DNA of 64,000 bases. Source: Halanaerobiales bacterium (GTDB lineage Bacteria; Bacillota; Halanaerobiia; Halanaerobiales; DTU029). Below the pieces are notes generated by a model, which made no database searches, was not told where the DNA came from, and saw only the letters and a program-made list of their open reading frames with translations. Position 1 is the stretch's first letter, and each line of letters starts with the position of its first letter. The stretch lies in the NCBI GenBank assembly GCA_029981855.1, contig JARRCS010000006.1, forward strand, positions 1 to 64,000, given 5' to 3'. Positions 16,124-58,333 of the stretch are shown one piece after another. The position numbers and the translations under genes are program-made.

Positions 16124-19100
16124 CTAACTCCCGTACTCCAGCAGTTCCTGGATATCCTCCCAGGTAATTTTATCCAGGGGGTTGGCGTTATTCTCAATCA
16201 CCCTATCAAAGATATGCCGCTTTCTCTCCTGCAGCTTCAGCATCTTCTCTTCGACGGTACCGCTGGTAATCAGCTTATAGACCATCACCCTTTTCTCCTG
16301 GCCGATCCGGTGGGCCCGGTCGCTGGCCTGTCTCTCGACCATCGGGTTCCACCAGGGATCAACATGGATAACCATATCGGCTGCGGTCAGGTTCAACCCG
16401 TAGCCGCCGGCCTTGAGACTGATCAGAAAAACCCTGATATCCTCATTTTCGTTAAAACGCCTAACCCTTTCCATTCGGTTTCTGGTACTCCCGTCAAGAT
16501 ACTCAAAATCAATTCCCTTCTCCTTAAACCGCTCCCTGATCAGCTTTAACATCTTAACAAACTGGCTGAAGACAATTAGTTTGTGACCGCCATCAATAGC
16601 ATCCTGAACTAGTTCGAGCAGGGCCTCCAGTTTCCCGGAGCTCTGCTTTTGATCTTTATTAAGGACTAAAGCGGGGTGGTTACAGATCTGCCGTAATTTT
16701 GTGAGCACAGCCAGTACATTAATCCTTGCCTGGTCAAATCCCTTCTCCTGAACCGTTCTGACGAGATTCTCCTTCACCTCATCCAGGACAACCCGGTAGG
16801 TATCTTCCTGTAACCTGGTCATCTTCACCGGATAGATATTAACCAGCTTTTCGGGTAGCTCCTTAAGGACCTCTTCCTTTTTCCGCCGCAGGATAAAAGG
16901 GGCTACCCTCTTTTTGAGCTCAACCAGTTTTGCCTGATCACCATTTTTAATCGGCTGGAGGTAATTCTTCCTGAACTGATTATAGTTGCCGAGATACCCC
17001 CTCATCAGAAAATCCATAATCGACCATAACTCCTCAACCGAGTTTTCAATCGGGGTGCCGGTCAGGGCCAACCTGCCCCCTGCTTTAATCTGCTTCACCC
17101 CTCTGGCCCTCTTTGTGCGATGATTTTTGATATGCTGGGCCTCATCCAGGATACAGTAGGAAAAGCTTATCTCCTTTAGCTCCTTATAATCCCGGCTGAT
17201 AATCGAATAGGAGCTGATCACCAGTTCATAGTCAGCAAGATTGGCCCGCATCTCTTTCCTTTCCGCAGGGGTCCCGTAATAGACCAAATATCTAGTACCG
17301 GGGAAGAACTTCTCAATCTCCTCCCCCCAGTTATAGATCAATGTCCGGGGGCAGATAATTAGGGCCGGTTTCTCCCGGGAAATCGACTTGAGGAAGGTCA
17401 GGGTCTGCAGGGTCTTCCCGAGGCCCATATCATCGGCTAAAATCCCGCCGAAACGGTATTTATCCAGGAAGTGGAACCAGTAGTAACCCCTCTTCTGATA
17501 ATTCCTTAATACACCCTCTACCTCCCGGGGAATCTCAATCTCCCTGACCAGTTTATCACCGGTAATATCCTGGTCAAGCTCGTTAAAGACCCTGTTTCCC
17601 TTAAACTGGATACCCGCTTCCTCTACCAGTTTACGGTAATATAATAGATTAAAATAATTACTCCTGAACCTATCATTACCAATCTCTTCTGCCAGCTGGA
17701 GGGCCTCTTCGACCCTCTCTTGCTGTTCGTTCTCCTGGAGGATAAAGTACTGTTTACCGATCCTGATATAACCCTCACCCTGTTTATTATAACGCAGCAG
17801 CTTTTTCAGTTCACTGTAGCTGTAGCTCTGGCCGCCCAGATTAAAGTTAACCGTAAACTCGAACCAGTCTATCTTATCCCCATCTTCCTTAAATTCAATT
17901 ATAGGTTCAAGCTCAACAGGTACTATCTCCACCTCATCAAAGGCAGGGGTGGTTTCAACCTCCCACTCTTCAGGAAGATGGAGAAAGCCATCAGTTATGA
18001 AATCCTGAATATCGTTCTCATCCTTAATAATAAAGCCCTCCGAATGGACATGAAACTTATTATACTCCAGAAAATTAATCAGGTTCTTTAGGGCCTCAAC
18101 ATCCCAGCAGTACCAGAGTTTAGGATTTTCCTCATCCCTTTGATAATGCCTATCATCGAGGTTAATCCCCAGAATCTCTGCATTGCGGTAGAGATTACCG
18201 GCCAGCTCTACCCGGGAACGACAGAAGATGGCATCATCCTGATAATCAAATTGCAGCTTGATTACTGGCTCCTCTTTGATTAGTTCGTAATCCTGAAGGT
18301 TATCCGCGAGCCTGAGGCTGAGCTGTTCCTTTAAAGATGGTAGAACCTCAAAGAGGAATTCCCCTTTTCTCTCCGAGGGTATATCAATCCTGTCGGGCAG
18401 TCCCCGGATAGCACCTACCTCAACAGGGTGAACCCTTGATTCTATTACTGTCCAGGCCAACCGGCCTTCTGCGTATGTATGTTCATAGATAGGAAATCCC
18501 CCTTTCACAGGTTTAATCTCTATCCTATCTTCATCCCCTTCTATCTCTAGTTCAGGATATAATGGCTCTCCTACCCCGGCAAGCTCCCCGGTTTCATCGA
18601 GATAGACCTGCTCTTTCTCCAACAGATTTAAGAGAAAACTAAAATTAGCCATATTTTTCGGAAAGAGAATCGCTCCGGGGGTGCTGCTCTTAGTGGTTCC
18701 AGTCTTAGCTAAATACTCAATATTATTGGCATCACTATAACTTAAACCCTCCATTACCTTAGTCGAATTATAGTAGTAAGGGTCATTTATATAAGAGATA
18801 ATATCTTCCAGCTCTTGCTCCGAGAGCTGTTCAGACTTTAAAGTAAGCTTAAAGTTAACCATTGAATTGGTCAGCAAACCCTTAAGATAATACTTTAAGG
18901 AAACCTTTTCAGCTGGCCTAATACGCCGGCTTAATTCTACCAGTTTCGCGTATCTCCTGGACTGACCATACCTTTTAAGTTCTGGATAATCCTCGTTTAT
19001 AAACCGGTATAAGACAGCAACCACGTGTTTACAGATCTCCCCCCAGTTATAGGGACAGCTGCAATTACCGTAGAGAGAGAAATGGTTTCCCTCTATTTGG

Positions 19101-19288
19101 AGAAAGATACTGACCACGTACATGGTAGTGCCTCTAACCCTGGCCTCAATCCGGAATTCGCCTTCATTTAGAGGTATAACGTTATAATCCTGAATTTTAC
19201 CGGAGTTATAATAGTTTTTTCCCCTCCGGAAGATCCTGTCCGGTACAGCTTTTTTAAGTGCGGTTAAGAGTTTCATCTCCGATCCCAT
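16124..19288 (-). CDS. SNF2-family helicase with SWIM zinc finger
   Basis: 1054 residues. A SWIM zinc finger C-x-C-x7-C-x-H lies at 76-88. A long middle region (about 100-600) is of the bacterial SNF2 N-terminal type. The helicase core follows: Walker A DDMGLGKTLQT (around 615), DEAQ box in ILDEAQHIK, LTGTPIENS, and motif VI near the C-terminus (DRAHRIGQ). Such proteins translocate on double-stranded DNA and may act in repair, transcription recycling or defence. It is probably monocistronic or shares a promoter with the 45-residue frame upstream, and is closed by a strong terminator. ATG at 19288 has GGGGAG eleven bases upstream; a second ATG four codons later is possible. No nuclease partner is adjacent. 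Confidence 0.9.
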   Translation of the reverse strand: MGSEMKLLTALKKAVPDRIFRRGKNYYNSGKIQDYNVIPLNEGEFRIEARVRGTTMYVVSIFLQIEGNHFSLYGNCSCPYNWGEICKHVVAVLYRFINEDYPELKRYGQSRRYAKLVELSRRIRPAEKVSLKYYLKGLLTNSMVNFKLTLKSEQLSEQELEDIISYINDPYYYNSTKVMEGLSYSDANNIEYLAKTGTTKSSTPGAILFPKNMANFSFLLNLLEKEQVYLDETGELAGVGEPLYPELEIEGDEDRIEIKPVKGGFPIYEHTYAEGRLAWTVIESRVHPVEVGAIRGLPDRIDIPSERKGEFLFEVLPSLKEQLSLRLADNLQDYELIKEEPVIKLQFDYQDDAIFCRSRVELAGNLYRNAEILGINLDDRHYQRDEENPKLWYCWDVEALKNLINFLEYNKFHVHSEGFIIKDENDIQDFITDGFLHLPEEWEVETTPAFDEVEIVPVELEPIIEFKEDGDKIDWFEFTVNFNLGGQSYSYSELKKLLRYNKQGEGYIRIGKQYFILQENEQQERVEEALQLAEEIGNDRFRSNYFNLLYYRKLVEEAGIQFKGNRVFNELDQDITGDKLVREIEIPREVEGVLRNYQKRGYYWFHFLDKYRFGGILADDMGLGKTLQTLTFLKSISREKPALIICPRTLIYNWGEEIEKFFPGTRYLVYYGTPAERKEMRANLADYELVISSYSIISRDYKELKEISFSYCILDEAQHIKNHRTKRARGVKQIKAGGRLALTGTPIENSVEELWSIMDFLMRGYLGNYNQFRKNYLQPIKNGDQAKLVELKKRVAPFILRRKKEEVLKELPEKLVNIYPVKMTRLQEDTYRVVLDEVKENLVRTVQEKGFDQARINVLAVLTKLRQICNHPALVLNKDQKQSSGKLEALLELVQDAIDGGHKLIVFSQFVKMLKLIRERFKEKGIDFEYLDGSTRNRMERVRRFNENEDIRVFLISLKAGGYGLNLTAADMVIHVDPWWNPMVERQASDRAHRIGQEKRVMVYKLITSGTVEEKMLKLQERKRHIFDRVIENNANPLDKITWEDIQELLEYGS

Positions 19289-45745: not shown

Positions 45746-47209
45746 TCAAAGTAACCCCGTACGCCGGTTAAAATCCTCAATTAACTTATCTATTTCGGCT
45801 ACCTGATTGTGAATCTCTTCCCAGTAAGCAGGGTAATCATACCACTGGGCGTTTAGCTCCTCCAGATCCTTGCCTTGCTGTTCGATCCAGGTATAATATT
45901 TCAGGTTGTGAATCCGCTTCCGATCATAGTAGTCTAATTCCCGCATATTATCTATGGTCAAGGCCAGCAGGTGCCGGTGGAAATCTACAGCAGCATCAAT
46001 CTTTTCATAGGGACCGTGCTCCTCCTCCAGTTCCCTTAATCTGGACTGGTATAATTCCATAGAATCGGTAAAGACGGTCAGGACAATATCCCTCTCCGTC
46101 AACTCGTAGTATTTGGCAAACTTGATAGCAGAAATAACATTGGCAATACTCGAAATACCGAGCAGAGGAAGTTTTTCTATGATCTTGGCGGAGACCCCCT
46201 GTTCCTTCAGGTATTCCTGACCGGCCGGTTCATTAAAAAGCCTAATCAGGTTCATGGTATTATTATCATCGATGGCAATTATCATATCGGTATTCCTAAC
46301 GTTATGAATCCAGGGTACGTGTTTGTCGCCGATACCCTCAATCCGGTGGGCACCGAAACCATTGTTGAGCAGGGTCGGGCACTGCAGGGCCTCACCGACG
46401 GCTATCTTGCTTTGAGGATAGAGTTCCTTCAGGTAATCCCCGCATCCCAGTGTTCCCGAAGAACCCGAGGTTAAGACAACCCCACTGTAATTATCCCCCG
46501 GCCCCATTACCTCCTCAAGGACCTCTTCCATGGCATGGCCAGTGACCTCATAGTGCCAGAGATGGTTCCCGAATTCTTCAAACTGATTGAAGATAACAAC
46601 ATTATCCCTGGTCTCCCTTAATTCCCAACACTTATCAAAGATTTCTTTGACATTGCTCTCACTTCCCGGCGTGGAAATTACTTCACCGGCCACCTGTGAT
46701 AACCAGTCAAAGCGTTCCTGACTCATCCCCTCCGGGAGGATAGCAATAGACTCACAGGCTAAAAGCTCAGCATCATAGGCACCACCACGGCAGTAGTTGC
46801 CGGTAGAGGGCCAAACAGCCTTCTGATAGGTGGGATCGAACTGGCCGGTCACCAGTCTCGGTACCAGACAGCCAAATGTTGCTCCCACCTTATGGGCCCC
46901 GGTAGGAAACCATTTGCCCACCAGCCCGATAATTCTGGCCTTAACCCCGGTTAATTCCTCCGGCAGCTCTATAAAATTAACCCCACCGTAAAGACCACCC
47001 TGCTTGCGGGGTTCGTTCTTCCAGGTTATTCTGAAGAGATTATAGGAGTTAATATCCCATAAACCTATGTCTTTAAGCCTTTCTTTGATTATATCCGGAA
47101 TCAGCTCCGGATTTTTCTGCTGGGCAAAGGTCGGGATGATGATATTCCTTTTTCTGGCCCGCTCCACCACTTTATCCAACTGTTTTTCGTTGATGCTTAA
47201 ATCTATCAT
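45746..47209 (-). CDS. Fold-II PLP-dependent enzyme, TrpB-like, unknown substrate
   Basis: 487 residues. The PLP lysine is in KWFPTGAHKVGATFG (Lys 107), comparable with the GAHK of tryptophan synthase beta. Phosphate-binding glycines are in LTSGSSGTLGCGDYL. The C-terminal ~110 residues form an extra helical region (HNLKYYTWIEQQGKDLEELN). It is the promoter-proximal gene of the island's minus-strand run, 43 bases before the threonine-synthase-like gene. It could act on a diamino acid released by the YgeY-type hydrolase. I do not recognise an exact family member with known reaction. Confidence 0.75.
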   Translation of the reverse strand: MIDLSINEKQLDKVVERARKRNIIIPTFAQQKNPELIPDIIKERLKDIGLWDINSYNLFRITWKNEPRKQGGLYGGVNFIELPEELTGVKARIIGLVGKWFPTGAHKVGATFGCLVPRLVTGQFDPTYQKAVWPSTGNYCRGGAYDAELLACESIAILPEGMSQERFDWLSQVAGEVISTPGSESNVKEIFDKCWELRETRDNVVIFNQFEEFGNHLWHYEVTGHAMEEVLEEVMGPGDNYSGVVLTSGSSGTLGCGDYLKELYPQSKIAVGEALQCPTLLNNGFGAHRIEGIGDKHVPWIHNVRNTDMIIAIDDNNTMNLIRLFNEPAGQEYLKEQGVSAKIIEKLPLLGISSIANVISAIKFAKYYELTERDIVLTVFTDSMELYQSRLRELEEEHGPYEKIDAAVDFHRHLLALTIDNMRELDYYDRKRIHNLKYYTWIEQQGKDLEELNAQWYDYPAYWEEIHNQVAEIDKLIEDFNRRTGLL

Positions 47210-47532
47210 CTTCTACCTCCCACATTTTTTGTTTAATGTCAAAGTTTAAATAGATTGACCTCCGGCTATAACCTTTTAATACCGTAATTTACCTGCAGGG
47301 GCATAAATAAGTATATATTAGTAAAACCGTTAAATATGATTTAATTCTTACTATATATATTCAATGATATTTAAATAATTCCTGCATAATATTCTAAAAA
47401 GTTCAAATTTTTTAATTGCTTGTTAACACCTTCTATCATTTCATAACTAACGTTAATTTAATTATACCACTATTGTAATTATATGGCAAAATTGGATTGG
47501 TGCCTTGCTTCCGTTCGGTAACTTACTCAAAA
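47210..47532. other. AT-rich intergenic region
   Basis: About 320 bases between the PLP-enzyme start and the dispersed repeat. It must hold the promoter of the PLP operon, but no single convincing -35/-10 pair stood out. No gene or stable hairpin was seen. Confidence 0.6.
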
Positions 47533-47536
47533 ATAA

Positions 47537-47571
47537 CTGCAAATAGATGTAGAGAGATGTTAGGAAATTTT
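47537..47571 (+). repeat. Dispersed repeat, copy A
   Basis: TGCAAATAGATGTAGAGAGATG followed by TTAGGAAATTTTT is a close match, with one gap and few changes, to copy B near 61304-61340. It sits at the end of the MotB-like gene. Nature unknown. Confidence 0.55.
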
Positions 47572-47574
47572 TAT

Positions 47575-48285
47575 CTAGTTGACAACTTCCCTCATCTTAT
47601 CGATAAAATACTGGTCCTTGATATTAAACTTAATCTCCACCCGGCGGGACTTTTTCCGGTTGATACTACCATCCTTATTCCTAATCAGGACACTTTCTGA
47701 CTTCCCGTTGGCTGTAATATAATTTTTTAGTATCTCTTTATACTTAAAATCCGGAAACTCATCACTTAAGATATATTTAACAACATTTAAGGCCCTTCGC
47801 TGTGACAGATCAAGGTTATACATATAACTTCCTCTGTCATCGGTATGGCCCTCAACGATTATCTGGGAGATATTATCCCGGTATTCCCCGTCCAGGAGCA
47901 CCTCAACATACTTGGGGATAAACTCCTCAAGCATTCTCTTAAATTGGGGCTTGATTACTGCCGAATCGGTTTCAAATAAAACCTCACCACTAAAGGTAAT
48001 GGCCCCGGTATCCTCGTCCAGGTTAATCGCCAGTCTGGAATCGGCAAACTTCTGGCTCAAATCCCTGGCTATCTTCTCCCGGAAGCCGATGATTTCATCT
48101 ATTCTGGTGTTGATCATCTGCTGTACTTCCTGGGTTTTCCTGGTACTGATCTGGGCTACAAAGATATAGGAGACAAGCACTAGTAGGATAACCAGAATGA
48201 TTACACTCAAAAGATCCGTAAAGGTAGGCCAGAAATTTTCTTCATTCTCCTGTGTATTTAAAAGATTTCTCTCCTGACTAAGCAT
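47575..48285 (-). CDS. ZorB-like MotB/OmpA-family protein
   Basis: 236 residues. One membrane segment (about 25-45, LLSVIILVILLVLVSYIFV) is preceded by WPTFTDLLSV, whose Asp 24 is placed like the proton-carrying Asp of MotB and ZorB. A C-terminal OmpA-type peptidoglycan-binding domain has FETDSAVIKPQ and VEGHTDDRGSYMYNLDLSQRRA. Length matches ZorB (about 240). GGAGG lies five bases before the ATG. It follows the ZorA-like gene by 160 bases. A flagellar stator is unlikely given the partner's long tail and lack of other flagellar motor genes here. Confidence 0.8.
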   Translation of the reverse strand: MLSQERNLLNTQENEENFWPTFTDLLSVIILVILLVLVSYIFVAQISTRKTQEVQQMINTRIDEIIGFREKIARDLSQKFADSRLAINLDEDTGAITFSGEVLFETDSAVIKPQFKRMLEEFIPKYVEVLLDGEYRDNISQIIVEGHTDDRGSYMYNLDLSQRRALNVVKYILSDEFPDFKYKEILKNYITANGKSESVLIRNKDGSINRKKSRRVEIKFNIKDQYFIDKMREVVN

Positions 48286-48447
48286 AGTTTCCTCCTAATC
48301 TGTTTCCCTATAACCTTTTCCTGTTTACCAATATCACCAGACATAGTAAAAATTTCCGTATAACGTAAACTTTCCGGGCCTTACATTATCGTTTTATCTT
48401 CTTGCCTGACAGCACCTATTAGTACTCTTGCTTTCAGCCATCCGGGA

Positions 48448-50007
48448 TTAATTCTTTAATTCTTGAATTGACTGGGTATTCTCTTCCCAGTTTGCTCTCT
48501 CTTCCCGGATTAAGTCCCTTAATTCCTGGATTGACCGGTTATGCTCCTTAATATTAGTCTCAACAGATTTAACCGCCTGACTCAGCTCATTAATTGCCCC
48601 CTCCAGGTCACTGGCATTGAAGGCCAGTCCGCTGAGATATTTCCCCAGGAGCAGGTCCAGGTTTTCAAATTTATTGACCAGTGAATCAAATCCCCTGTTA
48701 ATAATCTTATTGGATAAACTGACGTGTTCGGCAAAGGTCTTGATATTCCTGTTCATATCATCGTGATAGCTGTTTTTAATCTCTTCCATCGTCCGGTTCA
48801 ACTCATCCACATTACCGGCAAAACTGGCTGCCAGCTCCTCTCTGATAGAGCGGATCGTCTTTAAGACCTCCTGATAACCGGCTGCTATCTTCTGCTGCCT
48901 ACCTGCGGTATCTTCAATTACCTTCAGCAGGTTATCTAATCTGGCCGTATCCCTGGCAAACTCTTTTTGTGATTCGGTAATCTCCTGCTGGATATCCTCC
49001 AGAATGGCAATATTATTCTCCTGCATCTCATTACTGCTTTCTAAGAATTTACGCATCTCTGCCTGCTGTCCGGCCAGCTCATCAATACTCATAAACAACT
49101 TATCGAATTTGTTGCTGATGGTTTTAACATCTTCACTGAATTCCTCGGTAAACTCCTTATTTATCTGATAAAATTCCTTCAGATCATCCATACTGCCGGC
49201 AAGGTTAGTATTAAAGTCCTCCATATGGACGGCCGCCTCTTCAAACTGGGCAGAAAAGGCCTTAAAGCCTTTGATGGCCTCATAAATCTTAGCAGTATTA
49301 TCTGTCATTCTGGCAAAACCCGTCTCCATGGTCTGGGAAATTTTCTGTAGCTGCTTAACCAGAAAGGACTTCTTGCTAATTTTGATCTCATTATCAAGGT
49401 AATTCTCCAGTCTGACCATAATACCAGCCAGAAACTGTTCGGCATTAAATAGTTTCAGAAGAAAGGTTGTTAGCAGGGCAAGGCTCATACCGACAATGCT
49501 GGTGGCAAAGGCCGTCCCCATTCCGGAGAGCACGGGGGCAATACTCTCCAGACCGGGTAGGATATTCCCTGGCATATCGGAATTAAGTACGCTTACCAGT
49601 GAGGTGTAGATACCGACAAATGTCCCCAGAACACCTACCAGTATAAAGAGAGAAACCGTATTTTTAATAAATTTTATCGTACTGATCACCGGGATTTTGA
49701 TGACCGCCATCAGGGGAAGGGGAAACAGAACTGCCTTATAACTGGAGAAAAAATCCTCTACATAGGCCCTGGTATTTATCTGGTGGGTAGATATCTTTAA
49801 AAGTTCTTCAAACCCCTGGATTATCTTCCGAAGAGGTAATCTGTAGATTGAGCCCTTTTGCACCTGCCAGTTTAAATAGAGGAGATTAATCCAGATAATA
49901 AAATACAAACCGATATCTATGACAAACAGGGTAAGTAGCACCTGAAAGACGAAATAGCTTATCTCATCATTGATAATTCCTTCTTTGATAATCTCAAAAA
50001 TTTCCAT
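48448..50007 (-). CDS. ZorA-like MotA/TolQ/ExbB channel with long coiled tail
   Basis: 519 residues from the ATG at 50007 (AAGGGAGAG ten bases upstream; an upstream extension arises from a 17-bp tandem repeat and is not used). Membrane segments lie at about 20-45, 110-135 (TVSLFILVGVLGTFVGIYTSLV) and 150-185 (GMGTAFATSIVGMSLALLTTFLL), the last two being the MotA/ExbB signature pair. From about 200 onward is a ~320-residue helical, coiled-coil tail, as in ZorA and unlike MotA (about 270 residues in total) or ExbB. With the ZorB-like protein it should form a peptidoglycan-anchored ion-driven motor. Classical Zorya effector genes are absent; a NYN protein takes their place. Confidence 0.8.
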   Translation of the reverse strand: MEIFEIIKEGIINDEISYFVFQVLLTLFVIDIGLYFIIWINLLYLNWQVQKGSIYRLPLRKIIQGFEELLKISTHQINTRAYVEDFFSSYKAVLFPLPLMAVIKIPVISTIKFIKNTVSLFILVGVLGTFVGIYTSLVSVLNSDMPGNILPGLESIAPVLSGMGTAFATSIVGMSLALLTTFLLKLFNAEQFLAGIMVRLENYLDNEIKISKKSFLVKQLQKISQTMETGFARMTDNTAKIYEAIKGFKAFSAQFEEAAVHMEDFNTNLAGSMDDLKEFYQINKEFTEEFSEDVKTISNKFDKLFMSIDELAGQQAEMRKFLESSNEMQENNIAILEDIQQEITESQKEFARDTARLDNLLKVIEDTAGRQQKIAAGYQEVLKTIRSIREELAASFAGNVDELNRTMEEIKNSYHDDMNRNIKTFAEHVSLSNKIINRGFDSLVNKFENLDLLLGKYLSGLAFNASDLEGAINELSQAVKSVETNIKEHNRSIQELRDLIREERANWEENTQSIQELKN

Positions 50008-50033
50008 TTGCCAGGGTCTCTCCCTTCTACTTT

Positions 50034-50067
50034 CAAGCCACCTACTACTCCAAGCCATCTACTACTC
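50034..50067. repeat. 17-bp tandem duplication
   Basis: CAAGCCACCTACTACTC is followed at once by CAAGCCATCTACTACTC, one mismatch. It lies in the 68-base gap between the NYN-protein stop and the ZorA-like start. It is a recent slippage or duplication and has created a spurious upstream extension of the ZorA-like frame. Confidence 0.85.
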
Positions 50068-50075
50068 TATTTATT

Positions 50076-51491
50076 TCACTCTATCTCATTATGGATAAAC
50101 TCGATACAATCCCAGTATTCATCTAGATAACTGTGCTTAAAGTTTTTGATAAAACCTTTGTAAGTACTCTCCGGGCTTACAGAAATAATTTTGACTTCCT
50201 TCCCCTCCTCTTGAAACTCCCTAGCTAGATTATAGAAATGCCTGTCTCCGGTCAATAGAAGAATACTGTCAACCTCATCCCGGGAATCCCTCATAATCTC
50301 GAGGAGCTTTAAGTCATCAAGATCTACTTCTCTACCCTCAACTATGGTTTTGGCTTTTAAACTATCGCTTTCGACTGTAATTACCTTAAAACTGTATTCT
50401 TCAAGATATTCCTTAATATTCAGTATTAATTCAAATATGTATTCACCCCGCATACCTTCATAACCCGGCAGAAAGATTACCGCTACTTTCTTCCGGATCT
50501 TCCGGCTTTCAATTCTGCCGTAAATCTTTGCCAGCAGTCTATCAAAATTGATCATCATTTTATCGCCAGCAAAATACATAGGAGTGAAAATATTAGCTAC
50601 ATCCAGAAAGACCCCTATCCTTTTCCGGCTCAAGGAATAGCTTGTTTCCCCCTTAAGATCCGCTAAAATCTCCGTAAAATCCTGATATAGCTTATGAGCT
50701 GTCTCGCCGTAAACCAGTGGTTCAATCAGGCGTCCCTCTATCTTTTCAAACCAGCTCTGCTGATAGAGCTTAGCCTGTTGCTTTTCCGTATCTTCGATAT
50801 AATAATGGTAAAGTAGCTGTGCCAGTGAGTTTAAATTATTCTCCAGCAACCCCTGACTGTCTGCTTTTAGAGTCAGGGAATGATAACCGAGAAAGTATTT
50901 TAGATTTCCTGCCCGATCATAGAGGAAATCCCCAGGCTTTAATCCGTGAATATCTACCTGAATTAGCTCCCCGGTTAAAAATGCATAAAACTTCACCAGT
51001 TCTTCAATCCAGGACTTATTTTCACTCAATTTACTAGCAATCTCCTCATATCTATAGAGGTTCTGCCCGGAAAAACAGGGAACGGGAAGGGTAAAATATC
51101 TACTCCCGGCAAGATCCTTTACAGCTATCCTTTTAAGGAAAGCAAAATAATGTTGCCCCCCCTCCCGGGCTTTTAATAATTGCTGTATTTCCTGCTGATA
51201 GGAAACGATCTCATCCCTTTCATAAAGATAGATCAATTCCAGATCTTCCCCGGAGAAACTAAGCGGAACAAAACTATATCTGTTAGCATCAAGCACATCA
51301 CCGCAGCCAGCTTCTGTATCATTTAGCCGTTTCTTACCTTCCGTCTTGCTAAAGTTAAATTTCTTAAACTTACAATCCGGGATGAGTTTGTGTTTGCCTT
51401 GCAAGAGATTAATCATACACATCTGTCTATATATCCCGTCAATTATTTCGCTTCCATTTTCAATTCCTCGCGGTAAAATAGCATAACTCAT
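50076..51491 (-). CDS. NYN-domain nuclease fused to a kinase-like region
   Basis: 471 residues. The C-terminal part (about 290-445) is a NYN/LabA-type PIN-fold nuclease domain: GVFLDVANIF with Asp 297, the acidic patch VDLDDLK (390-393) and LLTGDRHFYNLAREF with Asp 416. The N-terminal part recalls a degenerate protein kinase: VDIHGLKPGDFLYDRAGNLKY (about 179-199) resembles the catalytic-loop order of kinases (H-x-D-L-K-P-x-N), with the key Asp and Asn missing, and ENNLNSLAQLLYHYY resembles the following helix. The match is by eye only. AAGGGGT precedes the ATG. It starts a three-gene operon with the ZorAB-like proteins, so it is the candidate sensor or effector. Confidence 0.75.
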   Translation of the reverse strand: MSYAILPRGIENGSEIIDGIYRQMCMINLLQGKHKLIPDCKFKKFNFSKTEGKKRLNDTEAGCGDVLDANRYSFVPLSFSGEDLELIYLYERDEIVSYQQEIQQLLKAREGGQHYFAFLKRIAVKDLAGSRYFTLPVPCFSGQNLYRYEEIASKLSENKSWIEELVKFYAFLTGELIQVDIHGLKPGDFLYDRAGNLKYFLGYHSLTLKADSQGLLENNLNSLAQLLYHYYIEDTEKQQAKLYQQSWFEKIEGRLIEPLVYGETAHKLYQDFTEILADLKGETSYSLSRKRIGVFLDVANIFTPMYFAGDKMMINFDRLLAKIYGRIESRKIRKKVAVIFLPGYEGMRGEYIFELILNIKEYLEEYSFKVITVESDSLKAKTIVEGREVDLDDLKLLEIMRDSRDEVDSILLLTGDRHFYNLAREFQEEGKEVKIISVSPESTYKGFIKNFKHSYLDEYWDCIEFIHNEIE

Positions 51492-51691
51492 AAAAATACC
51501 CCTTAAACTGTCATCTTCCTCAAGATAATTATATCACATTCTGCCCCTTAACGAAAAAAAATAATTAATAGATATCATCCCCCCGGTATAAATTATCCAC
51601 CATGTCATCTTATAATTATTATCTCAAAAATATATTACAACTTCCACCGGAAATAACCTCTTCAAGCACCATTCCCAGGCATTTCCCAAAA

Positions 51692-52108
51692 TCAAGAATA
51701 TGGAAGGATATAACCCATTGTGATAAAATCATCATCATAAGCAAAAACATTTTTTATATTATTTTCTTCACAGAGAGCAAAACTGGTACAATCTGTAAAA
51801 GAAAACAACTGATCATTATACTTCCTGAAAATACTGATGGCTTTATCAAATATTTTTCTATCAATCCATTCTATGCGCAACAAATCTTCATCTTCTGCCT
51901 GATCAATTAACTTTTTAAACTGAATTGCCTTTCCATAACTCAGGTCATATCTCAATCTGGTTATTGTTTCATCTATAATATAATCCGATGTTATTAACAA
52001 ATTTCCCTCATTTAAGATTCGTTTATAATAATTTACTGCCTTTCGATGATTTTTATCATTTTTTATAGCAACTGCCAACCAACCGCTGGTATCAATAAAA
52101 ACAATCAT
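51692..52108 (-). CDS. VapC-like PIN-domain toxin
   Basis: 138 residues. PIN-domain acids are in FIDTSGW (Asp 6), SDYIIDETITRLR (Glu around 47), FSFTDCTSFALCEE (Asp around 105) and FAYDDDF. Such toxins cut tRNA or rRNA. Its ATG overlaps the antitoxin stop by four bases, the usual toxin-antitoxin arrangement. A 200-base gap separates it from the NYN-protein gene. Confidence 0.88.
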   Translation of the reverse strand: MIVFIDTSGWLAVAIKNDKNHRKAVNYYKRILNEGNLLITSDYIIDETITRLRYDLSYGKAIQFKKLIDQAEDEDLLRIEWIDRKIFDKAISIFRKYNDQLFSFTDCTSFALCEENNIKNVFAYDDDFITMGYILPYS

Positions 52109-52359
52109 TTATCATCTGCCTCCAGATATAAATACCTATCGTGGTTCTCGGAAGAATCATTTCTTTTGCTTTCACCAAGTCCCACTAGCTTCATCAGGGG
52201 ATTTTTTTTATTATTTTCCTTTATGATCCTTTCTTTTTCAATTAAATACTCATCTAGAGCATCCCGAATCAAAGCAGATTCGCTCCTGTTCAAAATATAG
52301 GCAATATCTTTTAACTTTTCATCTAACTCCTTGGTGATATAAATCTGTTTTCGTTTCAT
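52105..52359 (-). CDS. Ribbon-helix-helix antitoxin
   Basis: 84 residues from the ATG at 52359 (AGGAGG twelve bases upstream). KRKQIYITKELDEKLKDIA begins a ribbon-helix-helix DNA-binding fold, followed by SESALIRDALDEYLIEKE. The C-terminal 30 residues are polar and likely wrap the toxin. It neutralises the PIN toxin and probably represses the pair. It precedes and overlaps the toxin gene. Confidence 0.85.
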   Translation of the reverse strand: MKRKQIYITKELDEKLKDIAYILNRSESALIRDALDEYLIEKERIIKENNKKNPLMKLVGLGESKRNDSSENHDRYLYLEADDK

Positions 52360-52509
52360 CTTTACCACCAACCTCCTTTTTATACTACCACATGGCACCA
52401 TCATCAGAATAATGCCAATTTATCATATACATTACTTATATTATAATGTATAATTACAGAAAATTCAATAGCAAAATCCAGGACATACACCCTGGATTAT
52501 GATAGCAAT

Positions 52510-53580
52510 TTATTCAACTTCCAGTTCTTCTACTTCTTCTAACATCGGCAGGGAAGGTATTCCGCCGTGTCTGGTAGTGGTTATAGCTCCGACTTTATTG
52601 GCAAAGGTAAGAATCTCCTCCAGTTCCTCCGAGCTGATCTTACCGAGCCAGCTACAGCCTGAACTGTTAGAACCCGCAATATTAGAGTTTGCAGTGTTAT
52701 TTTCTAAAGAACTATCATTAATAGTACTAGTAATTAAAGCACTTAGCTTACTTAAAACGGCAGCTACAAAACCATCCCCAGCACCGGTAGTATCGATAGC
52801 TTTCACCTTAAAGCCCGGGACATACCCGCTGCCGGTGTTAGAATAGTAAAAGCTTCCCTGATTGCCCAGGGTAACAACTACCAGCTCCGGTCCCTCTTCA
52901 TAAATCTCACGGCAGGCATTTTTAAGTTGCTCCCTGGCCTCATCCATATTTTGCACATCAAGTTTGACATCAGTCAAGATCTCCAGCTCTTCCTCGTTTA
53001 CCTTGACCATATCAGCCAGAGGAAGAGTCTCTTTGATTGTCCTGACTGCCTGGTCTAGCGAGTCCCAAAGGGGCGGTCTGATATTCGGATCAAAGGAAAC
53101 CATAATACCATTATCCCTCGCATATTTAACCAGTTCAAGGGTTGTTGTTTTTGCCGGATCAACAATTAAGGAAATTGAGCCAAAATGAAATATTTTAGCC
53201 CCTTTTAAATAATTAAAATCTACTTCTTCGGTTCTATAGAGCATATCAGCCCCGGGTTTACGGTAAAAGGCAAAATCCCGCTCCCCATCACTCCTTAAGG
53301 AAACAAAAGCCAGGGTGGTCATCGCCTCCTCGGTCAAGATCAGCTGAGAGGTGTCGACTTCATTCTCTGCCAGTGTTCTCTGCAGAAACCTGCCGAAGGC
53401 ATCGTTACCTACCTTACCCATAAAACCCGTATTAACCCCGAGCCTGGCCAGCCCCACTGCCACATTAGCCGGAGCTCCCCCGGGAGCCCGGTGGAAATCA
53501 CTGACCTCCTCCAGGAAACAGTCCACCTGTTGAGGTACAAAATCTATTAAAGCCTCCCCCATCGTTATTACATCAGGCAT
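52510..53580 (-). CDS. PfkB-family sugar kinase (fructokinase-like)
   Basis: 356 residues, about 40 above the family's norm. Signature 1 is GGAPANVAVGLARLG (around 34-48) and signature 2 is DTTGAGDGFVAAVL with the catalytic Asp (around 265-278). Just after it lies a Ser/Asn-rich low-complexity insertion (about 283-311, SSLENNTANSNIAGSNSSG). The overall pattern (MGEALIDFVP, FHRAPGG) fits fructokinases. It stands alone between the toxin-antitoxin pair and an ABC transporter operon. The insert resembles those in the FAD subunit and NTPase genes. Confidence 0.88.
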   Translation of the reverse strand: MPDVITMGEALIDFVPQQVDCFLEEVSDFHRAPGGAPANVAVGLARLGVNTGFMGKVGNDAFGRFLQRTLAENEVDTSQLILTEEAMTTLAFVSLRSDGERDFAFYRKPGADMLYRTEEVDFNYLKGAKIFHFGSISLIVDPAKTTTLELVKYARDNGIMVSFDPNIRPPLWDSLDQAVRTIKETLPLADMVKVNEEELEILTDVKLDVQNMDEAREQLKNACREIYEEGPELVVVTLGNQGSFYYSNTGSGYVPGFKVKAIDTTGAGDGFVAAVLSKLSALITSTINDSSLENNTANSNIAGSNSSGCSWLGKISSEELEEILTFANKVGAITTTRHGGIPSLPMLEEVEELEVE

Positions 53581-53685
53581 CAGGCACCATCCTTTCGCAT
53601 CCTCATCATTATCTTTAACTTCCGATTTAATGAAATATATACCAATAATATAATAGTATATTTTAGTAATAATTATAAAGGAATT

Positions 53686-54483
53686 TCATTCACTCAACAG
53701 TACCCGGTCATTGGTAAACTCGTGGCCCCGTTTTTCATTAAACTTCTTAAGCAGCCCCTGAACTGTAGTATTTTCCCTTTCCTTACCCTTAATATCCAGG
53801 ATAATCTGGCCGCGGTCCATCATAATGGTTCTGTTGCCCATCTCCAGAGCCTGTTTCAGGTCATGAGTAACCATTAAAACTGTCAAATTATTCTGTTCCA
53901 CAACCTTTTCGGTAATCTCAATAATCTGGATCGCGGTTTTGGGATCGAGGGCAGCCGTATGCTCATCCAGTAACAGGATCTCCGGATCACCGAGAGTGGC
54001 CATTAGCAGGGTCAGGGCCTGGCGCTGTCCACCGGAGAGGAGTTTAACCGGATCTTCAAGCCTGTCTTCCAGACCGAGTCCCAGCAGACTCAACATCTCC
54101 CGGTATTCATGTCTCCGCCCCTGGTTTAGGCCCAACCTTAACCCGCGCCTCTTGCCCCTTTTAGAAGCCAGTGCGAGGTTCTCTTCAATGGTCATTTCAG
54201 CAGCCGTCCCCTTCAGGGGATCCTGGAAAACCCGCCCCACCAGGAAGGCCCGCTTATTTACCGGCCATTTGGTTACATCCTGGCCATTAATTTCAACCTG
54301 GCCGATCTCGGGAAGATAGCTACCGGCTACCACATTGAGCAGGGTCGATTTGCCCGCACCATTACTGCCGATGATGGTAACAAAATCCCCTCTGGATAAG
54401 GTCAGATTAACACCCCTCAGGGCATAATTCTCATTTATCTTGCCATAATTAAAGACCTTATGAAGATTAGTTATCTTTAACAT
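53686..54483 (-). CDS. TrpXYZ-like ABC transporter, ATP-binding protein
   Basis: 265 residues from the ATG at 54483 (AAGGTG upstream); an earlier in-frame codon would lie in the permease gene. Walker A GSNGAGKST (around 40), signature LLSGGQRQALTL, Walker B EILLLDEHTAALDPKT and the switch histidine in VTHDLKQALEMG are intact. It energises the permease encoded just upstream, overlapping by 17 bases. Such ABC_sub_bind-type systems have been linked to tryptophan or tyrosine uptake. Confidence 0.9.
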   Translation of the reverse strand: MLKITNLHKVFNYGKINENYALRGVNLTLSRGDFVTIIGSNGAGKSTLLNVVAGSYLPEIGQVEINGQDVTKWPVNKRAFLVGRVFQDPLKGTAAEMTIEENLALASKRGKRRGLRLGLNQGRRHEYREMLSLLGLGLEDRLEDPVKLLSGGQRQALTLLMATLGDPEILLLDEHTAALDPKTAIQIIEITEKVVEQNNLTVLMVTHDLKQALEMGNRTIMMDRGQIILDIKGKERENTTVQGLLKKFNEKRGHEFTNDRVLLSE

Positions 54484-55390
54484 CGGAAACACCTTCTTCC
54501 AGCAGGTGTTCTGCAAACTCATCCTGGATCATAAACTTTCTTAAGGAAGGTGCCCCCAGGGCCATAATTACCAAAATAGCGGTAACAATCTTCAAATCGG
54601 TCGGGGCAAAGCCTAACTGTAAGGCAATGGCTATCGCCAGCCTGTAAATTATTGAACCGATAATTACCCCAAGGGTAGCCAGGGGTATCCTGCTGGTCCT
54701 GATAACAACCTCGCCGATAATAACCGATGCTAGCCCGATGACGATCATTCCTATTCCCATTCCCACATCGGTAAACCCCTGATACTGGGCAACTAAAGCC
54801 CCGGAAAGAGCAACCAGCCCGTTGGCCATACTTAAACCAAGAATCTTAATATAATCAGTATTTACACCAAGGCTCTCAATCATAACCGGATTATCACCCG
54901 TTGCCCTGATAGCCATACCGACCTCAGTATAAAGGAAATAATCAATAAGTGCTTTTACTAATAAAACAATCAGAATAAAGGTTATCAATGCAACAAACCG
55001 GGAGCTAATGCCCCATTCCTCGATAATTCGTATAATAGTTGGTTCTCTTAACAGAGGTATATTGGATCTACCCATTATTCTTAGGTTTAACGAATAGAGG
55101 GAAGTCATGGTTAAAATACCAGCAAGTAACCCGGCAATCTTGAGCTTAGTATTAATTACACCGGTTATTATGCCGGCAATACCGCCGGCAATAAAGGCCA
55201 GCAGAGTAGCCAGGAAAGGGTTAACCCCCAGTACAATTGATTTGGCGACCACAGCAGCCCCCAGGGGGAAACTTCCTTCAACTGTTAAATCAGGAAAATC
55301 CAGGATGCGAAAGGTTAGATAAACACCCATGGCCAGGAGGCTAAAGGCTATTCCCTGTTCAATAGTTCTCATAAAAAGATTAATCCACAT
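54467..55390 (-). CDS. TrpXYZ-like ABC transporter, permease
   Basis: 307 residues with about eight membrane segments. It is a branched-chain-amino-acid-type permease (LDFPDLTVEGSFPLGAAVVAKS near the N-terminus and VGMAIRATGDNPVMIESLGVN in the coupling region). These features occur in the permeases that accompany PF04392-type binding proteins. It is followed with overlap by its ATPase and preceded by the binding protein, 93 bases upstream, where a short GC-rich hairpin (about 55430-55450) may lower its expression. Confidence 0.88.
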   Translation of the reverse strand: MWINLFMRTIEQGIAFSLLAMGVYLTFRILDFPDLTVEGSFPLGAAVVAKSIVLGVNPFLATLLAFIAGGIAGIITGVINTKLKIAGLLAGILTMTSLYSLNLRIMGRSNIPLLREPTIIRIIEEWGISSRFVALITFILIVLLVKALIDYFLYTEVGMAIRATGDNPVMIESLGVNTDYIKILGLSMANGLVALSGALVAQYQGFTDVGMGIGMIVIGLASVIIGEVVIRTSRIPLATLGVIIGSIIYRLAIAIALQLGFAPTDLKIVTAILVIMALGAPSLRKFMIQDEFAEHLLEEGVSDVKDN

Positions 55391-55483
55391 AATTACACTC
55401 CTAACATCAAACTAAACCAATACACAACCCCGCCCCCTAGGGAGCGAGGTCGTTAATTTTGTTTGTTTTTTTTGATTTAAGCC

Positions 55484-56479
55484 TTATTCCTCAGCTCCGG
55501 TCAATATTTCATCCGCCGCTTCCTTTAACTCATCCGGAATGGTAACTCCCATTGCCCTGGCAGCTTCTGCATTAATTACCAGTTTCATTTCCTTCTGCCT
55601 TTCTATCGGCATTGTTGCCGGCTCAGCTTCACCCTTAATCACCTTGAGAGCCATTTCGGCGGTCTGGCGGCCCAGCCGGTAATAGTCGATACCAACCGTT
55701 GCCAGCCCCCCACTTCTAACAGAATTATCTTCCCCTACAATCATGGGTAGGTCAAATTCCTCAGCAACCATAACGACAGACTCGATAGCCGAAACTACCG
55801 TATTGTCAGTTGGTACATAGATGGCATCAACCCGGTTAGCCAATGATAGGGCGGCCTGAAGGACATTAGCGCTGGTATCAGCTGTAGCTTCTATCAGTTC
55901 TATTCCTAAGTCCTTAGCAACCTCCCTGGCAATCTTAACCTGGACAACAGAATTACTCTCACCGGCATTATAGACAATACCTACTTTTTGGGCCTCGGGT
56001 TTAAATTTAAGTACCAGTTCGAGCTGCTTATCTATCGGGTTCATATCGGTTGTCCCGGTGACATTAGTTCCCGGTTTTTCTGCAGAATTCACTAACCCGG
56101 CATCAACAGGATCTGTGACAGCTGTAATTAAGATAGGAATATCCTTAATAACATTAGCTACAGCCTGAGCAGTAGGAGTCGCGATAGCCAGGATAAGATC
56201 GGGCTTATCTATCGAAAACTTCTGGGCTATCGTATTAGCAGTCGACATATCTCCCTGGGCATTCTGATAATCATAGATTATGTTTTCCCCTTCTACATAA
56301 CCATTTTCACTCATAACATCAATAAATCCCTGTCTGGCGGCATCAAGAGCAGGATGTTCTACAATCTGAATAATACCCACCTTCAATTCTTTAGCAGCAA
56401 CACTAAAACTAACTAACGATAAAACCAGCAAACTAAGTACTACCCCGATTAATAATACTCGGCTACTCTTCTTCTCCAT
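55484..56479 (-). CDS. ABC_sub_bind (TrpX-like) solute-binding protein
   Basis: 331 residues. Signal peptide (hydrophobic 8-27, cleavage near SVAA); no lipobox cysteine. The mature protein has the PF04392 pattern: VGIIQIVEHPALDAARQGF, YDYQNAQGDMSTANTIAQKF, TDMNPIDKQLELVLKF and PTDNTVVSAIESVV. It delivers the ligand (in studied cases an aromatic amino acid) to the permease. First gene of the operon; GGGGGAG precedes its start. Confidence 0.9.
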   Translation of the reverse strand: MEKKSSRVLLIGVVLSLLVLSLVSFSVAAKELKVGIIQIVEHPALDAARQGFIDVMSENGYVEGENIIYDYQNAQGDMSTANTIAQKFSIDKPDLILAIATPTAQAVANVIKDIPILITAVTDPVDAGLVNSAEKPGTNVTGTTDMNPIDKQLELVLKFKPEAQKVGIVYNAGESNSVVQVKIAREVAKDLGIELIEATADTSANVLQAALSLANRVDAIYVPTDNTVVSAIESVVMVAEEFDLPMIVGEDNSVRSGGLATVGIDYYRLGRQTAEMALKVIKGEAEPATMPIERQKEMKLVINAEAARAMGVTIPDELKEAADEILTGAEE

Positions 56480-56619
56480 CTTTATTTACTCCCCCTATAT
56501 TTATTAATGATATTGATAAAATTATACCACGGGCAATATTTAATTGTCAAACTATCCGCCAGAGGATTCCATCACCCCTTTCCTATTCTTTATTATACCA
56601 AAATATTACTGCAATTTCA

Positions 56620-57042
56620 TTATTGCCCTTGTTCAATATTTTCAAATTCATAGGAAGAAGTTATCTCGGCATTAAAGGAATTACTTGCAGAGCAGTACTT
56701 TTCCTGGGAAAGATTAATCGCCCTGGAGATATTTTTCTCCGTTAACCCCTTTCCCTTTAATTTATATTTTAAATGGATTCTGGTAAATCTTCTGGGGTGT
56801 TCCTCTGCCCTTTCCCCCTCTACCTCAACACTAAAATCTGTTAGCTCAACCTTCATCTTTTTTAGAATTAGGACAACATCGATAGCAGTACAACCGGCCA
56901 GCCCGTGCAGTAAAAGCTCCATCGGCCTCGGCCCCTGATCGTGTCCTCCGCTCTCCTCGGCGGCATCAATTATTACCTCATGACCCGAACCACCCTTAGC
57001 TACAAACCCAAGATCACCCTTCCAGATAAGTTTGGACTTCAT
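56620..57042 (-). CDS. OsmC-family protein
   Basis: 140 residues, normal for the YhfA/OsmC group. The two redox cysteines are Cys 51 (LLHGLAGCTAIDVV) and Cys 117 (QEKYCSASNSF), the pair that reduces organic hydroperoxides. RPMELLLHGLAGCTA is the family hallmark. It is a single gene between the transporter and the hydrogenase maturation operon, consistent with oxidative-stress protection in an anaerobe. Confidence 0.9.
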   Translation of the reverse strand: MKSKLIWKGDLGFVAKGGSGHEVIIDAAEESGGHDQGPRPMELLLHGLAGCTAIDVVLILKKMKVELTDFSVEVEGERAEEHPRRFTRIHLKYKLKGKGLTEKNISRAINLSQEKYCSASNSFNAEITSSYEFENIEQGQ

Positions 57043-57178
57043 AATTAGAAATTCCCCCTTTATTATTTATAGTTTATTCTTTTAATTTATTTTAATATAT
57101 ACTACAGACAGAAAATGTAAGGCGAACTACATTGTGTAATAATATAGGCCGAAGCAGCATCAATAGTAAAGATTCCTC

Positions 57179-58333
57179 CTACCGGAACCCATGTTTTAAA
57201 CTATGACCGTAATCAGTACTGACAACCCGTCCCAGAGAGGCGATGATTCCCCCGATACACTGCCGGCAGTCTTTTGCTTCTTCACCAATACAGATCTTAG
57301 CCGGATAAATCTCGTATAGGGGACGGTACTTTGTTGCCGTAACGTTGGGCATCACCACATTGGCACCGGCCTTAAGGGCCTTCTGTCTCCCTTCGGGATC
57401 TACGGTCCCCAGGGCGGTTGTAGCCGGGATATGGGCCAGGGGTAATAACAACCTGGTTACAGCAACCGTTTTTAAGGTCATCTCGACTGTACCTGCAGGC
57501 CGGTCCTTTAGCGGTGTATTTTGATGGGGGATAAAGGGGCCTATTCCTACCATATCCAGATCTAACTCCTGAAATAATTTAATATCCCGGGCAATTATCA
57601 CTTCATCCTGACCGGGGAGGCCGGTAATGTTTCCACTGCCCACCTGATAGCCTAACTCTTTAAGCCACTCCAGCCTTTTAATCCGTTCTGCAAATACCAT
57701 CTCCGGATGGAGTTCATGATAGAGTTCAGGGTCAGCCACCTCATGTTTCAGTAGGTAGCGGTCGGCACCGGACTCCTTCCATAATTTATATTCCTCATAA
57801 TCCCGCTCTCCAACACAGAGGGTAATCGCTATACCGGCCTTTTCTTTTATCTCCTTTATAATCTGAGCTATCTTATCAGCATCATACCCATCCTCTCCCG
57901 ACTGCAGGACAACGGTTTTATAACCGAGGTCAGCCGCTTCCAGAGCCATCTCAATTATCTCCTGCGGAGTGAGCTGGTAACGCTTTAAATCCTGATTATC
58001 CCTTCTCAGGCCACAATACTTACAGTTGCGGTGGCAATAATTAGAAAACTCAATTATCCCCCTTAAGTGAACCTCCTTACCATGGTATTTAGCCCTGACC
58101 CGGTCAGCCCTCTGACAGAGCATTGTAAAATTATCACCCTTAACCTTTAATAAGGTAACTATTTCATCTATTGATAGATCATGTTCTCTTTCTGCCTTAT
58201 CCAGCAATTTTAAGACCGAGGAATTTATGTTATTGTTCATAACATGAATTCCGGTATTACCAAATTTTCCTTTTGGATGATTATGGCCATTAGACCAATT
58301 TATTGTTGTATTATTTATATTTTCAGACATCAT
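57179..58333 (-). CDS. hydE: HydE, [FeFe]-hydrogenase maturase (radical SAM)
   Basis: 384 residues. Radical SAM motif C-x3-C-x2-C in FSNYCHRNCKYCGLRR (around 103-110). It builds the Fe(CO)2CN-derived subcluster precursor of the H-cluster from the HydG product. Relative to many HydE proteins there is an Asn-rich N-terminal extension (INNTTINWSNGHNH) of about 30 residues. The C-terminal cysteines (CIGEEAKDCRQCIGG) match the optional second cluster site. Last gene of the maturation operon, after aspA and hydF. Confidence 0.93.
   Translation of the reverse strand: MMSENINNTTINWSNGHNHPKGKFGNTGIHVMNNNINSSVLKLLDKAEREHDLSIDEIVTLLKVKGDNFTMLCQRADRVRAKYHGKEVHLRGIIEFSNYCHRNCKYCGLRRDNQDLKRYQLTPQEIIEMALEAADLGYKTVVLQSGEDGYDADKIAQIIKEIKEKAGIAITLCVGERDYEEYKLWKESGADRYLLKHEVADPELYHELHPEMVFAERIKRLEWLKELGYQVGSGNITGLPGQDEVIIARDIKLFQELDLDMVGIGPFIPHQNTPLKDRPAGTVEMTLKTVAVTRLLLPLAHIPATTALGTVDPEGRQKALKAGANVVMPNVTATKYRPLYEIYPAKICIGEEAKDCRQCIGGIIASLGRVVSTDYGHSLKHGFR

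Follow-up and report, generated by a model that had tools for sequence, protein, structure and literature searches.

We examined a three-gene locus on contig JARRCS010000006.1 of a Halanaerobiales bacterium (assembly GCA_029981855.1; 2.59 Mb in 39 contigs), within positions 1 to 64,000 of that contig, the stretch that we refer to as the window. On the minus strand, from 51491 down to 47575, are genes for a protein with an NYN nuclease domain, a ZorA-like motor subunit and a ZorB-like subunit, in that order. Judged by its parts, this cassette may be a defence against viruses that acts by destroying RNA instead of DNA. An earlier sequence-only reading had grouped the three same-strand genes into a unit; all three frames were confirmed at the coordinates below, and the same order is found in two other genera.

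50076..51491, minus strand: NYN-domain protein P0003, 471 amino acids; Pfam NYN, with an NYN nuclease fold in residues 291-465
48448..50058, minus strand: ZorA-like motor subunit P0002, 536 amino acids; MotA-type membrane core with the motifs GVLGTFxG and AFATS, and a predicted helical tail of ~320 residues
47575..48285, minus strand: ZorB-like subunit P0001, 236 amino acids; a hydrophobic N-terminal helix carrying the ion-site residue D24 within WPTFTDLL, and an OmpA/MotB-type domain at the C terminus

The cassette is likely read as a single transcript. No promoter-like or terminator-like sites stood above the level of shuffled sequence, repeats in 46900-57200 amounted to one 18-nt pair away from the borders, and no transfer RNA genes were found in the window.

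The ZorB-like and ZorA-like subunits

ZorAB is described as a 5:2 ion-driven motor, and defence by Zorya types I and II needs the peptidoglycan domain of ZorB, the ion-site aspartate and the ZorA tail (PMC11890865). The same authors propose, as a model, that ZorAB recruits nuclease effectors (PMC11890865), and the same idea is given for ZorC and ZorD (PMC12904381). Types I and II are described as DNA-acting (PMC11890865; PMC12904381). Types II and III are described in PMC13192584 and PMC8565338, and type III has ZorF and ZorG, proposed regulators (PMC8565338). ZorAB was treated as a remote homolog and excluded from the phylogeny of PMC12505986.

The ZorB-like protein contains an OmpA/MotB-type domain predicted to bind peptidoglycan (Pfam PF00691, 2.6e-12), and its best PADLOC model is ZorB1 (3e-74). 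The sequence-only reading had seen here a MotB/OmpA-type protein with a proton-site aspartate, and this residue, D24, is indeed invariant across 12 aligned ZorB sequences. When solved chains were searched with a profile of five relatives, the ZorB chains 8vvi, 8qyd and 8vvn ranked above MotB chains; we take 8qyd to be a Zorya entry. Chain 8vvi belongs to type II ZorAB and 8vvn to type I (PMC11890865).

Placing this protein in phylogenetic context (40 rows: 25 on the ZorB side, including two plasmid references, and 15 flagellar MotB, with the near-duplicate locus L065 omitted) separates ZorB from flagellar MotB at 100/100. The three NYN-linked ZorB sequences found in this study join those of genomes G052 and G055 (contig 77) at 99/94. 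The NYN-linked group falls among ZorB of types I and II, and the tree, which drew long-branch warnings for Z1_Kleb, flag_L096 and Z1_G431, gives no finer position.

ZorB relatives also turned up in other collections. Plasmid records matched P0001 in 102 cases (best identity 39%), and four viral contigs (L101-L104) carry relatives at 29-33% identity in the ZorB profile search. Two further ZorB matches, L055 and L060 (genomes G280 and G345), were flagged with one internal stop codon; the open frames there are 232 and 240 amino acids.

The ZorA of the cassette is more diverged than its ZorB. P0002 is a marginal match to Pfam MotA_ExbB (20.0 bits alone and 23.5 with its frame neighbours, against a cut-off of 22.9), matches ZorA models at best at 3.7e-12 (PADLOC) and 1.3e-8 (NCBIfam), and has no match in plasmids. 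The membrane core retains GVLGTFxG and AFATS, and residues ~215-536 are modelled as helices only, at a mean predicted local distance difference test (pLDDT) score of 48. Thus the MotA-type channel with a tail of about 320 residues that had been read from the sequence is consistent with the ZorA model matches and the helical model, and the motor core and long cytoplasmic tail expected of a ZorA appear to be present, on weak profile scores and a tail model of low confidence. The true start of the protein is probably Met18 (~50007), because both orthologs start there.

In a tree of the ZorA core, 22 ZorA sequences stand apart from seven flagellar MotA and two ExbB-type rows of the genome at 100/100. 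This tree drew long-branch warnings and left out L065 and the ZorA of L043, which is split in two frames. The motor therefore groups as ZorAB-like in both trees, away from flagellar MotAB and, in the ZorA tree, from the two ExbB-type proteins, as the sequence-only reading had supposed.

The NYN protein

Residues 291-451 of P0003 match Pfam NYN well above its cut-off (E 6e-9; 37.0 bits against 24.2). The AlphaFold2 model is usable in the NYN part, which most closely resembles three NYN domains in structural comparison with VIA-align: mouse Marf1 (Z 14.5, root-mean-square deviation 2.5 over 143 residues), VPA0982 (2qip; Z 14.2, 3.6 over 151 residues) and human MARF1 (Z 13.7, 2.7 over 144 residues). 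The next match is T5 exonuclease, at Z 8.4. Foldseek likewise placed 2qip at the top (E 4e-7). Searched by sequence alone, the NYN domain gave nothing meaningful among solved chains, and among PHROGs the NYN protein had no match, while the other two cassette proteins gave OmpA-like and coiled-coil matches. The NYN/PIN-fold nuclease domain of the sequence-only reading is thereby upheld, and the model predicts a ribonuclease (RNase) fold of the MARF1/VPA0982 type. Structure prediction was informative for this domain, with clear fold matches, and of little use elsewhere: the ZorA tail is a low-scoring set of helices, and residues 1-291 of P0003 lie below a pLDDT of 50.

Residues D297, N300, D392/D393 and D416 are invariant in all three NYN proteins. 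The conserved active residues of VPA0982 are D14, D92 and D115, and both MARF1 and an NYN protein linked to clustered regularly interspaced short palindromic repeats (CRISPR) are ribonucleases (PMC11346440). The distance from D393 to D416 is 23 residues, equal to that from D92 to D115 of VPA0982 (PMC11346440). By fold and spacing, rather than by a printed alignment, D297, D392/D393 and D416 would correspond to the active aspartates of VPA0982.

The first 290 residues of P0003 are conserved among the orthologs. The sequence-only reading had called this part a degenerate kinase, a suggestion that our comparisons do not support. Searched against Pfam at E up to 10, the N-terminal parts of the three orthologs matched no kinase. 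With a query profile of three sequences, hhalign scored 0.2% against nine kinases, 0.9% against 12 kinases, and 1.0% against a profile with two of the 12 kinase loci of relatives; as positive controls, three single kinases scored 99.2-99.9%. Kinases carry catalytic aspartates in their HRD and DFG motifs, and residues 180-202, which look kinase-like by eye, have no counterparts of them.

Recurrence and genomic sites

NYN, ZorA and ZorB genes in this order were found in 3/61 genomes, namely the window genome, G002 and G004, all Halanaerobiaceae (three of the eight genomes of the family). The orthologs in the two other genera share 41-76% protein identity with the cassette, and their recurrence in the same order is therefore more than chance. 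In both, the NYN gene lies directly upstream of ZorAB (L039:8452-9840 in G004 and L040:9474-10769 in G002). The three NYN-bearing genomes are those with the closest ZorB matches, and among the 61 genomes NYN was found only alongside ZorAB, adjacent in 3/3 cases. Thus, the expectation that the NYN gene accompanies this ZorAB group holds in every case found. A profile of the three NYN sequences, run against the Genome Taxonomy Database contig collection, retrieved the contigs of G002 and G004 only, labelled Halanaerobiales and Halanaerobiaceae.

The surroundings of the cassette differ among these genomes as far as comparison was possible. Compared with L039 (16 kb) and L040 (10.8 kb), none of the window frames of at least 80 amino acids after position 38000 has a match besides the cassette itself and antisense shadows. 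Because contig L040 ends ~20 bases upstream of its NYN gene, the upstream comparison is with G004. The gene downstream of the window ZorB has a 74% ortholog in G004, located on a different, cassette-free contig. In G009 (L134) the ortholog of this gene adjoins an osmC-like gene, which in the window lies 9.4 kb away; the variable stretch relative to G009 (47209-56620, 9.4 kb) comprises the cassette, a toxin-antitoxin pair, a sugar-kinase gene and ABC-transporter genes (names assigned by eye). Since the flanks are unmatched in L039 and L040 and the gene arrangements of G004 and G009 differ, the cassette occupies, as far as gene content tells, a variable place, at different sites in different genera.

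Missing effectors and other ZorAB loci without them

As the sequence-only reading had noted, ZorC, ZorD and ZorE are absent from the cassette by Pfam and PADLOC (ZorE was searched at the cassette only), and its proteins have no Pfam match to ZorF (DUF3348) or ZorG (DUF2894), which were likewise searched there only. Across the window genome, no EH-signature match to ZorC was found at E 0.001; a diverged ZorC could be missed by this search, because even the genuine ZorC of G055 reached no better than 7.7e-8. That protein, encoded in a separate Zorya I locus on contig 54, was the one match in seven genomes with ZorAB loci lacking known effectors. In this G055 locus, ZorA is spread over two frames (299 and 210 amino acids; L043:9394-10922), a possible frameshift or split gene. 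At 1e-60, the ZorD model matches 5/7 of these genomes, and its matches need not be ZorD because the same model matches in 7/14 control genomes. The only such match in the window genome is an SNF2-type helicase (16187-18016, in region 16124-19288 of the window; 2.5e-134), 30 kb from the cassette and probably an ordinary SNF2 helicase rather than ZorD.

We compared effectors across 23 ZorAB loci of the genomes in the ZorB tree, leaving out L065 because it nearly duplicates L064. In 16 of them, ZorB is followed by ZorC/ZorD-type or ZorE-type genes, identified as ZorC or ZorD by hidden Markov model in 11, by gene order and length only in L047, as ZorE by PADLOC in three, and by a Pfam HNH domain in L049. 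The other seven, without known effectors, are the three NYN loci, G052, G055 contig 77, G180 and G324. This count is incomplete, as the weaker hits of the ZorB profile were for the most part assigned to flagellar MotB or other OmpA proteins without individual inspection; in one ZorB-profile survey, 124/398 genomes matched at E 1e-14. ZorAB pairs without ZorC, ZorD or ZorE, from four genomes, lie at L041:5116-8403, L042:7626-10689, L071:41-3440 and L105:6632-8641.

In all seven effectorless loci the membrane helix of ZorB starts with W-P-x-F-T/S-D. This motif, WPxF[TS]D, occurs in none of the other 16 loci, in neither plasmid reference and in no flagellar row with coverage of the site. In the ZorA core tree the seven loci form one group (97/92). 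The evidence on a single clade of all effectorless ZorAB is divided: the ZorA tree favours it, the ZorB tree places G180 and G324 deeper, and an approximately unbiased test is borderline against it (p 0.049). ZorAB pairs with WPxF[TS]D and no effectors are possibly a separate ZorAB subfamily.

Genes beside these pairs vary. G052 and G055 have in common a gene of 128/129 amino acids upstream and one of ~650 amino acids downstream, the G052 copy of the latter being a sigma-54 activator by Pfam. Upstream of the G180 pair is a 399-amino-acid protein of no clear family and without similarity to the NYN protein. The G324 pair occurs in one of the four genomes of its order.

Neighbouring genes

Upstream of the cassette on the same strand lie two genes that Pfam supports as real and that we count as neighbours, outside the cassette:

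51692..52108, minus strand: PIN-domain protein, toxin-like (PF01850, 4e-14), presumably of the VapC type
52105..52404, minus strand: ribbon-helix-helix protein, antitoxin-like (PF01402, 1.3e-4)

The pair was considered as part of the cassette and rejected, as none stands beside the cassette in L039, the sole relative where this could be checked; neither gene has a match in the L039 or L040 stretches. A toxin-antitoxin-like pair recognized by eye (92 and 108 amino acids; L071:3631-4232) follows the effectorless ZorAB of G180, as at the window cassette. Among the 10 flanking genes, eight have no PADLOC match at 1e-5. The remaining two, a helix-turn-helix regulator and an ABC-transporter ATPase, match helix-turn-helix and ATPase models (best 2.5e-16 and 1.6e-25), which we take as general similarity.

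Comparison with known systems

The cassette resembles Zorya type I in having ZorB1 as its best PADLOC model, a ZorB that falls among types I and II, a motor core, an ion-site aspartate, an OmpA-type domain and a long ZorA tail. It differs from type I in its lack of ZorC and ZorD, with NYN upstream in their stead, in a ZorB motif of WPTFTD where most type I rows read WxSYxD, and in a weakly related ZorA. With types II and III it shares a two-gene motor plus a separate partner, and with type II also the use of a single nuclease partner. That partner is an NYN protein encoded upstream, whereas in type II it is the HNH protein ZorE encoded downstream, and in type III the partners are the DUF3348/DUF2894 proteins ZorF and ZorG.

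On the nuclease side, the closest parallels are the CRISPR-associated NYN ribonuclease and the NYN domain of MARF1 (PMC11346440), with which the cassette protein is predicted to share a MARF1-type fold and aspartates that match by fold and spacing. Unlike these, it is fused to a 290-residue N-terminal part and adjoins a membrane motor rather than Cas proteins. The effectorless pairs of G052, G055 contig 77, G180 and G324 likewise have no adjacent ZorC, ZorD or ZorE and carry WPxF[TS]D in ZorB, but they lack NYN and have upstream a 128/129-amino-acid protein, a 399-amino-acid protein or an nrdJ-like gene. No description of an NYN-ZorAB pairing was found in the literature searched, which lacked most subscription papers.

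Proposed function and alternatives

The DNA and protein sequences show which family each protein belongs to, that the ion site and the aspartates are conserved, that the gene order recurs and that the cassette lies at different sites; they also show that the ZorAB-side features needed for Zorya defence are retained in the cassette. Together with analogy to Zorya, these observations lead us to favour slightly the interpretation that the cassette is a Zorya variant that couples envelope disturbance to an NYN RNase, for defence. In this mechanism, ZorA and ZorB would form an ion-driven motor in the inner membrane. Disturbance of the envelope, for instance by injection of phage DNA, would cause the outer domain of ZorB to grip peptidoglycan, and ion flow would turn or reshape the long ZorA tail. 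The tail would then recruit or activate the NYN protein through its N-terminal domain, and the NYN domain would cut RNA near the entry site or throughout the cell, which would stop phage expression or the cell itself. Sensing, motor action or rotation, and recruitment by the tail are carried over to the cassette from the Zorya papers; that RNA is what is cut, that ZorA activates the NYN protein and that the system serves defence is what we infer.

A number of observations weigh against this interpretation. NCBIfam scores are far below the curated thresholds both for ZorB (ZorB1 73.1 and ZorB2 69.4, each against a cut-off of 400) and for ZorA (ZorA_4 34.2 against 500; other models 28.1 against 190, 24.1 against 700 and 23.8 against 100). 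The ZorA and ZorB genes lie 162 bases apart in the window, as opposed to 11 in G004, which makes a single transcript less certain. The NYN group is very small, with three genomes in one family. Its profile matched 1/398 genomes of a phylum sample, the window's own (G002 and G004 are absent from that sample, because both would have matched), and, at the sensitivity of these searches, it retrieved nothing from viral contigs, plasmids or phages. The closest ZorAB relatives outside the family, G052 and G055 contig 77, have neither NYN nor ZorC, ZorD or ZorE adjacent, so a nuclease may not be required in this branch of ZorAB. The G324 pair sits between genes that we take, from their N-termini, to be nrdJ-like and sleB/ypeB-like. 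Finally, PADLOC revealed no specific defence gene among the 10 flanking genes, and the toxin-antitoxin pair, which the sequence-only reading had taken as a sign of a defence area, finds no support in that role.

Several of these points bear on the main rival, an envelope motor with no role in defence: a Zorya-related device for sensing or remodelling the cell wall, in which the NYN RNase would tune RNA decay under envelope stress. The lack of flanking defence genes speaks for it, as do the relatives without known effectors, one of them beside housekeeping-looking genes, and the shared WPxF[TS]D that separates the effectorless set from effector-bearing ZorB. Such a role fits poorly with the patchy presence of the cassette (three of eight family genomes, the window's included) and of the G324 pair (one of four in its order), and with the different sites of the cassette. 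We regard this rival as unlikely, though a serious competitor.

That the NYN protein is a regulator or passenger, and ZorAB the relic of a Zorya system after loss of the effectors, seems to us improbable. In three genera, all three genes have retained complete reading frames and their motifs, NYN occurs only with ZorAB (3/3), and G052 and G055 also retain full-length ZorAB, even though the position of ZorB among types I and II and the absence of a ZorC match from the genome in the EH-signature search would suit a relic. Lower still do we rate the chance that NYN cuts DNA, in which case the cassette would target DNA, as Zorya types I and II do, through a different nuclease fold. The fold class does include DNA nucleases, T5 exonuclease among the structural matches, but NYN domains, including those of mouse and human MARF1, take the first three places by a clear margin, and MARF1 and the CRISPR-linked NYN protein are ribonucleases (PMC11346440).

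One may go further and regard ZorAB as a general envelope-sensing motor platform with swapped outputs. Here the output would be an RNase, making the cassette a motor-coupled, RNA-targeting Zorya of a new type within the wider effectorless WPxF[TS]D set. We hold this broader proposal tentatively, at somewhat less than an even chance. If a ZorAB motor is indeed tied to an RNase, this would show that the mechanical trigger can be connected to another kind of target. The finding also draws attention to the effectorless ZorAB pairs as a set. As a compact three-gene system, the cassette would make the coupling of motor and nuclease addressable by point mutants (D24 and D416).

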